DNA from: an uncultured Alphaproteobacteria bacterium
Lineage (GTDB): Bacteria > Pseudomonadota > Alphaproteobacteria > Micropepsales > Micropepsaceae
Reading direction: 5' to 3'
Length of the DNA stretch: 46,162 nucleotides
NCBI GenBank assembly: GCA_903928515.1
Contig: CAIYRG010000040.1
Span: forward strand, 1-46,162
The position numbers and the translations under genes are program-made. Each line of letters opens with the position of its first letter. Within the stretch, counting starts at the first letter, position 1. Below are positions 31,973 through 35,200 of the stretch, one piece after another. The notes under the pieces were generated by a model. That model worked only from the letters and a program-made list of their open reading frames with translations. It was not told the origin of the DNA and ran no database searches.

Positions 31973-32282
31973 GACGAGTTCCTTCTCAAAATCGGGCGCA
32001 CGATAGCGCGCGGGCCCTGCCATGCAACGAAAAACCGCGCGGCTTTTGCGCAAGCATTTGGCGGATTTGAGCAATTTCAAACGCGCGCGGAATTACGCCA
32101 AGTTGCGTCCCAAAAGTGGACATCATCCGCAGCCCTCCGTAAGGTTTGTGCACTGCACTATCAGCAACGGCCAGCGATCAGGGGCGACGCGCTGCCGGAC
32201 AATCATCGAGCATTTTTAGAATATCCATTCATGGCCATCGCTGGCCGAATTGCGTCTCGTTCTACGGGTACTGGGGGTTGTT

Positions 32283-35200
32283 TTGCGTCGGTTCCATTTC
32301 TGCGCTTCGCGGCGCGCCAAAGCGTCTTTGTCCACTTGCATCAAGCACGCATTGTTCGACGCCGTTTTTTTTGATCACGGCGGTCATCGCCGCCCCCTTG
32401 CCGGCTTTTGCCGATGGCGGTGCTGGCGGAGCTGGCACCGCGACCGGCGGCAGCAGTGGCGCAGGCGGGACAGGCAATACCGGCATAGGTGGCTCGAATG
32501 GCAGTCCCTCGCTGCATGACTCCGGCGGCGGCGGCGGCGGCGCAGGCGGCTCGACGGGTGGTGACGGCGGCAGCGGCGGCGCTGGAGCCGGGCCGGGCGA
32601 TTACACGAGCCCAGGACAGGGTGGACAGGGTGGCCAAACCGCAGGGGCCGCTGGCGGCAACGGCGTAGACAATTCCGGGGCCGATGGCGGCGGCGGCGGC
32701 GGCGGCGGCGCTGATGGTGACGGGTTGACCGTTTTCACCGGCGGCGATGGCGGCCATGGCGGTGCGGCCGTTACCGATCCTTCGGCTGGGTCAGGCTGCT
32801 GCTTTAGCGGCGGCGGCGGCGGCGGCGGCGGCGGCGCAGGCGCAACACTCAGCGGCAATGCCAGCATCACCAGCGCGGCAAGCGGCGGCAAAGGCGGCAC
32901 CGGCGGCGACGCCGACCAAGGCAATGCTGGCAATGGCGGCGATGGCGGCAACAGCACCGCCTCGGTCGGCGGCAACGGCGGCAATGGCGGTGCCGGCATA
33001 AGCGCCGGCGCGAAAATCACCATCGACAATTCGGGGACGATCACTGGCGGTTCGGGCGGCAATGGCGGAACCGGCGGCACCACAGGTGGAACGGGCGGCG
33101 TTGGAGCGGCGGCGATTACCGGCACCGGCGGCCCGCTGACCGTGATCAACAGAAGCGGCGCGACGATTAGCGCCGGAAGCGGCGCGGACGCCATCGATTT
33201 CAGCGGCAACAGCAACAAGCTCGAATATTTCGTGGGCTCGACGATCACCGGCAACGTGGTCGCGCACAGCAACGACACGTTCGAATTGCATTCCACGTCG
33301 GACGGCAGTTTCGACGTGTCCAGCATCGGCGCTTCCGCCCAATTCCAAGGCTTCGGCAACTTCGTCAAAACCGGCGAAAACACCACCATCACGCTGACAA
33401 ACACCACCACCGCGTTGACGCCGTGGACCATCAGAAGTGGCGCCTTGAACATCTCGAGCAATGACGCGCTCGGCGACACATCCGGCGCCGTGACACTCGA
33501 CGGTGGCAGCCTGCAATTCGGCGTGGCGTTCACGTTCAACCACAACATCGCCATCACCTCGTCAGGCGGCACGCTCGACACCAACGGCAACGCGGTCACC
33601 GTCAGCAGCAACATTACGGATTCCGACACCAACGACGCGCTGACGAAGACGGGCCTCGGCACGCTGACCTTGACGGGCACCAACGCCTATTCGGGCGGCA
33701 CCACGATATCGGGCGGCGCGCTGAATGTTGCCACGGCTGCCGAACTCGGCACCGGCGGGCTGACGCTTGACGGCGGCACGTTCCAGGCCGGCGGATCGTT
33801 CACGCTTGCGCGCAGCATCGCCATCAACACCACCGGCGGCACAATCGATACCAATACGCAGACGCTGACCATTTCGGGCGTGATCGCGGATGGCAACGGC
33901 GCGGGCAAGTTGACCATCACCGACAATTCGGGCGGCGGCACGCTGATCCTCAACGGTGCGAGCACCTATTCCGGCGGTACGACTCTGGGTAGCCGCGGTA
34001 AGCTGCAATTGGGCGTCGATTCCGTTTTCAACACGCCGGGCGTGCCGAGTTCGGGCATCGCCTCTTCGGCCATCGGCACCGGTACACTGACGTTTGACGG
34101 CGGCCTGTTGCAGGCGCAGTCCGGCGCCAGCGAGCGGACGCTCGCGAATGCCATCCAGATTCCGTCGAACGGCGGCGCCATCGATGCTGGCGGCGGCTTC
34201 TTTAAGCTTTACGGCAACATCACCGACGCGTCGGGCGCGAGCGGCGCGACGCTGACCTTGGAAAGCCTCTCATCCGGCATCGAGCGCGAGATCATCCTCG
34301 CCGGCAACAACACCTATTCCGCCACAACCCGGATTGCATCAGGAACGGTGATCGCCAATTCGACGACGGCACTTTCACTGAACTCGGCATTTCAAGTCGC
34401 GTCGGGTGCGACGTTGACGCTCAACGGCGCCAGCAATTCCATCGCATCGTTGGCCAGCGCGGGCACAGTGCAGAATGCATCGGCATCGAACGTAACGCTG
34501 ACGATCACCGGCGCGCAGGGTGGGACCGACACGTTCACCGGCGTGCTTCAGGACGGCACAGGCGGCGGCTCGCTCGCTCTCGTGAAGAACGGCAGCAGCA
34601 TAGAAATCTTATCCGGCGCCAACACCTATACCGGTGGAACGACGGTGAACGGCGGCACATTGGAGGCGTCCGGCGGCGGCACACTCCCCGGCGCAATGAT
34701 CGTCAACACCAACGGCACATTCGACATCTCCAAGATTTCCGGATCGAGCTTCACGATTGCCTCGCTGTCCGGCACCGGCGGCACAGTCGCACTCGGCAGC
34801 AAAAATTTGATCGAGGGCGATAGCAGTTCGGGTACGTATGCCGGCGTCATCGCAGATGGCGGCGTCAATGGCGGCACTGGCGGTACGCTGACCAAAAACG
34901 GCGGCGGTACGCTGACGCTAACGGCGGCCAGCACCTATACCGGCGCCACCGCGATCAACAACGGCACGCTCGTCTTCGCCAGCAATGGCGCACTGCACGC
35001 GGGCAACACCATCAACGTCAACAATGGCGGCACGCTGCAGTTCAAAGATTCCACCAGCGCGGGCACGTATCTCATCAACAACGCCTACCTCGTGCACTTC
35101 AGCGACACCAGCACGGCGGGCAGCGCGGCGATCAACAACGCCTTCGGCGAAACACGCTTCAGCGACTCCTCATCCGCCGGATCGTCGATCATCACCAACA

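Follow-up and report, generated by a model that had tools for sequence, protein, structure and literature searches.

Several surface proteins are switched by repeats that lie in the 5' part or the signal-peptide region of their genes, among them hopZ of Helicobacter pylori and opa and pilC of Neisseria. The surface gene oipA of H. pylori, phase-variable through CT repeats (PMC10564699), and nalP and mspA, with phase-variable tracts (PMC3723659), are further cases of the kind, while transcriptional slippage has been described for dnaX of Thermus and for IS elements, typically on runs of nine (PMC1088944), and decay of autotransporter genes for capC and capD of Campylobacter (PMC7168839). The locus described here, an autotransporter gene with a T8 homopolymer at its signal-peptide region, shares with oipA/hopZ and opa/pilC a short repeat near the signal-peptide region that sets the frame of a surface protein, whereas the repeats of those genes are longer and vary between isolates, and the present tract is a T8 seen in one genome, in which such tracts are not enriched. 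With the dnaX and IS genes it shares an A/T run placed between two frames, although the run is of eight instead of nine and the arrangement is not conserved. The frameshifts and premature stops of capC and capD, ascribed to decay and not to tract switching, have a similar counterpart here, but in a different lineage and in one genome, from which lineage-wide decay cannot be inferred.

The window, that is the whole stretch of DNA analysed (46,162 nucleotides), is contig C40 of an assembly of 524 contigs (3.09 Mb, 90% complete, 5.4% contamination), and the order of the source genome is represented in the collection by a single family with 96 genomes. The long autotransporter frame, called frame B below, is an ORF at 32146-37755 translating to 1869 aa, and its stretch of about 1,800 autotransporter codons is intact. 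The C-terminal barrel matches PF03797 over the complete profile (166.8 bits, positions 1-255 of 255), and the passenger carries PATR repeats (PF12951, 142 bits, seven stretches), the beta-helix repeats of type Va; the gene is a classical monomeric autotransporter of type Va secretion. Proteins with PF03797 are present in 93 of the 96 genomes of the order, so this type of gene is ordinary there. As in other type Va autotransporters with PATR repeats (PF03797 plus PF12951), a complete C-terminal barrel is joined to PATR repeats in the passenger, and a hydrophobic core and an AxA site precede the passenger; unlike the type Va norm, the glycine-rich N-terminal part of the passenger has one recognisable relative (43%, in G016), and the n-region is apparently out of frame. 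The features of the locus are the following.

32231-32374, forward strand: frame C, ATG...HQARIVRRRFF-TGA, ending just past T8, in phase for a -1 slip, no Shine-Dalgarno (SD) sequence
32273-32278, forward strand: SD-like GGGGGT, 4 nt before TTG 32283 (5 nt from the last G), -9.6 kcal/mol
32278-32370, forward strand: frame B upstream of the core, with an alternative in-frame TTG at 32278, net charge +3, K/R 13 residues off, SD -3.9
32283-32369, forward strand: frame A, TTG start and basic n-region LRRFHFCASRRAKASLSTCIKHALFDAVF, the best-supported signal-peptide start
32365-32372, forward strand: T8 homopolymer, meeting point of the three frames and the only run of at least six in the gene
32371-32412, forward strand: frame B hydrophobic core and cleavage site LITAVIAAPLPAFA, then DGG, KD12 2.46
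32379-32394, forward strand: G+C hairpin of 6 bp, 7 nt 3' of the heptamer within T8, 60-nt folding z -1.16 against shuffles
32413-36954, forward strand: passenger, a glycine-rich N-terminal part followed by PATR repeats (PF12951, seven stretches; translation)
36955-37692, forward strand: autotransporter beta-barrel (PF03797 complete, 1-255/255)

Three reading frames come together at the T8, which is the sole run of this length class in the 5.6-kb gene and falls where the initial annotation had located it, at a frame junction; by chance 1.14 such tracts are expected per window, and at least one was found in 61% of shuffles. From TTG 32283, frame A encodes LRRFHFCASRRAKASLSTCIKHALFDAVFF before it passes into unrelated sequence, and the GGGGG described 5 nt upstream of that start was found at 32273-32277, where together with the next T it pairs at six positions with the anti-SD CACCUCCUUU. 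Frame B supplies the rest of the core and the AxA site, FFLITAVIAAPLPAFA-DGG, with cleavage between AFA and DGG, and the core is strongly hydrophobic (KD12 2.46 counting FF; the median of 55 relatives is 2.17). The core and AxA site stand in frame with the passenger; of the n-regions, that of frame A has the strongest SD and that of frame B a weak one. The latter had been said to lack a credible n-region, which is correct insofar as its K/R-to-core distance of 13 is atypical (range 0-12 in the 55 relatives), but the region is not empty, as TTG 32278 yields MFCVGSISALRGAPKRLCPLASSTHCSTPFFLITAV... with a net charge of +3 and a weak SD (-3.9), and LFCVGSISALRGAPKRLCPLASSTHCSTP precedes FFLITAVIAAPLPAFA-DGG. 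The meeting of two frames at the tract was likewise read properly as to the A/B junction, but a third one had been missed: frame C, from ATG 32231, carries RIVRRR up to T8 and has its TGA right after it. The product joined through seven T, previously termed a textbook signal peptide, was overstated, with an Asp at the start of the core, a K/R distance of 6 and a net charge of +1 in the 15 residues upstream.

When the frames are ordered by charge alone, frame C ranks first (K/R adjoining the core, net +4), followed by frame A, and frame B comes last (distance 13, net +2). Charge by itself discriminates weakly: one or both of the two other frames offer a passing n-region in 35% of random 147-base stretches of the genome and in 66% of shuffles of the local sequence. 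Codon usage upstream of T8 was at or near zero or below in all frames, without clear bias, and does not inform the choice of frame, and a sigma-70 promoter scan of the region returned no match.

The start region was set against 60 autotransporter genes of the order, compared at their 5' ends; 55 of them were assessable, the other five being set aside for reasons such as a cut at the contig end, a run into N or the lack of a clear core. A signal peptide stands in the autotransporter frame in all 55; within 60 residues, 44 have an ATG and 11 only GTG or TTG. The test, which was designed after the site had been seen, called for a start codon with an SD of -6 kcal/mol or lower, an n-region of net charge at least +2 and a K/R no more than 12 residues from the core; it was passed by 76% of correct frames, 3.6% of wrong frames and 4.3% of random positions in the source genome; at -8 kcal/mol the corresponding figures were 29%, 0 of 110 and 1.3%, and 0.9-1.3% of random genome sites pass at -8 to -9. 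Within the window frame A alone passes, with TTG 32283 behind GGGGGT at -9.6 kcal/mol, while frame B fails (TTG 32278, -3.9) and frame C fails for want of an SD, an outcome that did not change across three variants of the anti-Shine-Dalgarno sequence. The control with relatives thus gives moderate support to frame A as the probable start frame, and the earlier view that a start in this frame is the more gene-like one was borne out. A TTG start combined with an SD at -8 or better was found in none of the 55 correct frames, TTG being a minority start.

TTG starts nevertheless recur among the autotransporters of relatives. Those of L145, L146, L134, L132, L140 and L144 have an apparent TTG start in a similar 'KRFD-TTG-NKRALMLSAA' context, and this recurrence suggests that some signal peptides of the order habitually use TTG starts.

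The comparison of N-termini with homologues, which the initial annotation had proposed as a check, showed signal peptides in frame throughout the assessable relatives, and an n-region in the closest homologue, G016, that matches no frame of the window beyond chance. The signal peptide of G016 (single contig), MAQSNELSTSQERPAPIRNGRRADRRLSHGLLQSSAIGIALAALLALPGIASA, lies entirely in one frame, and alignment of the three frames with its n-region gave p values of 0.28 (A), 0.16 (B) and 0.99 (C). No close copy or second isolate was found in a DNA search of 61 genomes, and no close copy was found in protein searches of the family/order (96 genomes) and of a class sample (385), nor among the genome contigs, viral contigs and plasmids searched.

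We give about an even chance to a start in frame A with a slip at T8, in the strain or in the consensus, that put the n-region out of register. Translation would most likely start at TTG 32283 behind the SD GGGGGT, and the frame A n-region would then lie one base out of register with the core, passenger and barrel of frame B, the offset falling at T8. We infer as its cause an ordinary one-base slippage indel at the tract, which may lie in the assembled consensus or have arisen in the sampled strain or population, the gene in the latter case being off or broken not long ago. In this state a ribosome that begins in frame A would produce a short peptide of no use, and no export signal would be left for the passenger and barrel. 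The reading is favoured by the outcome of the start test, by the K/R distance of frame B, by the TTG starts among relatives, by the place of T8 at the junction as the only run of at least six in the gene and by the two damaged paralogues described below. Against it stand the design of the test after the site had been seen, the minority status of TTG, the n-region of G016, the absent codon bias, the Asp at the start of the core, the failure to find a second isolate or close orthologue in the searches above and the possible start at TTG 32278 in frame B.

The last of these points leads to a gene without any frame break, in which frame B would be read intact from TTG 32278 (or 32371) with an atypical signal peptide, and frames A and C would be chance look-alikes; we consider this a tentative possibility, somewhat on the doubtful side. 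Frame B is open and has an in-frame TTG, a net charge of +3 and a strong core, the ease with which charge-acceptable n-regions turn up in other frames (35% of random genomic stretches, 66% of shuffles) speaks for it, and a T8 is expected about once per window; on the other side, it fails a test that 76% of true frames pass, its K/R distance exceeds that of every one of the 55 relatives, and an SD as strong as that of frame A is reached by about 1% of random sites. Homopolymers are error-prone, and a single-site sequencing or assembly error at the tract, with the living gene in frame, is an unlikely but real alternative in an assembly of 524 contigs with 5.4% contamination. The homopolymer error suggested earlier survives in this local form and not as a generalised one, which is unlikely because other runs of eight or nine bases inside genes keep the frame: the C9 of an intact low-molecular-weight phosphotyrosine phosphatase gene (window 19406-19414), longer than T8, does so, as does the T8 of a serC-like gene. 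The Pfam domains of the window are for the most part full length, and a small comparison with one congener revealed no frameshift over 6,885 aligned residues, part of which lay in antisense ORFs. Both the error reading and the phase-variation reading overlap with that of a frame A start and a slip. Slipped-strand phase variation, with a reversible tract length and the present consensus as the OFF state, had been put forward for the locus and now appears improbable. The tract does sit where the signal peptide of a surface protein is encoded, a position shared with known phase-variable surface genes, and poly-A/T of at least 7 near frame transitions is taken by GeneTack as a possible sign (PMC3711429); however, T8 is below the poly-A/T cut-off of at least 10 used in a Campylobacter phasome survey (PMC6321876), A/T runs of at least 8 are not enriched in 302 kb (4 observed against 1-7 simulated under a third-order Markov model), no run of eight lies inside the signal peptides of the 55 relatives, the paralogues of the source genome on C351 and C340 have no such tract, and two paralogues look decayed. 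In the relative L133 a run of eight occurs nearby, apparently in the leader and outside the signal peptide.

A programmed joining of frames is the least probable reading, with a very slim chance in our estimate: it would proceed either by transcriptional slippage at U8 (A to B, one U shorter) or by ribosomal slippage (C to B, -1 on U_UUU_UUU). Some transcripts or ribosomes would pass at T8 from A or C into B, and only those would carry the full signal peptide; were it true, there would be low-level or mixed surface display without a change in DNA. In its favour are the proposal, for some bacteria, of productive slippage at eight A's (PMC1088944), the stop of frame C right after T8, the slippery heptamer U_UUU_UUU at 32365-32371 in phase with frame C and the 6-bp hairpin 7 nt downstream. 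On the other hand, the downstream 60 nt fold no better than dinucleotide shuffles (z -1.16), frame C is without an SD, frame A has no stop or motif favouring a +1 shift, and the arrangement is conserved in no relative, G016 and the 55 relatives having in-frame signal peptides. Frame C with a -1 slip was also considered as the lead model, its RIVRRR and ATG being attractive, and was set aside for the missing SD and the lack of a conserved or better-than-shuffle structure.

Other candidate frame breaks in the source genome were inspected as well. In-frame stops seen against G006 proved, in the cases inspected, to lie in out-of-gene or antisense frames. An A9 at 6240-6248 of L205 (contig C280, ligD region) falls in a lysine-rich part of a LigD-type 3'-phosphoesterase ORF, close to the end of this ORF, which overlaps a ligase-polymerase ORF in another frame; considered as a second homopolymer frame break, it was rejected as an error signal because relatives (G104, G010, G021 and G003) also have a separate phosphoesterase ORF of 250-266 aa, and the site may represent genes that overlap, or a frame transition conserved at poly-A.

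Two paralogous autotransporters were observed on contig C351. The one at L047 4438-7929, with a barrel 53% identical, has a frame that opens right behind the stop codon of an endonuclease III-like gene, and it shows no visible signal peptide in any frame, a state for which deletion, decay and misassembly are the alternatives. The second has a normal signal peptide, MTRKHVVLKTAALLMVTTTLIPAAPAMA, and an in-frame TAG at L047 9748-9750 that divides it into 561 + 490 codons in one frame. Both appear damaged in a pattern that fits loss of function, and because these two paralogues look damaged, loss of function in the autotransporter family of the source genome is plausible.

The T8 site is better seen as an ordinary slip of one base, whether of the strain or of the assembly, than as a demonstrated on/off switch. 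Should the break be real, the surface protein of about 1,800 codons is not exportable as assembled, and if there is switching, the locus would place autotransporter control by a homopolymer in an environmental lineage, beyond the mucosal pathogens from which such switches are known. The finding serves mainly as a caution, as an automatic gene caller would probably assign a false N-terminus here, and three frames round one homopolymer can all resemble a signal peptide.
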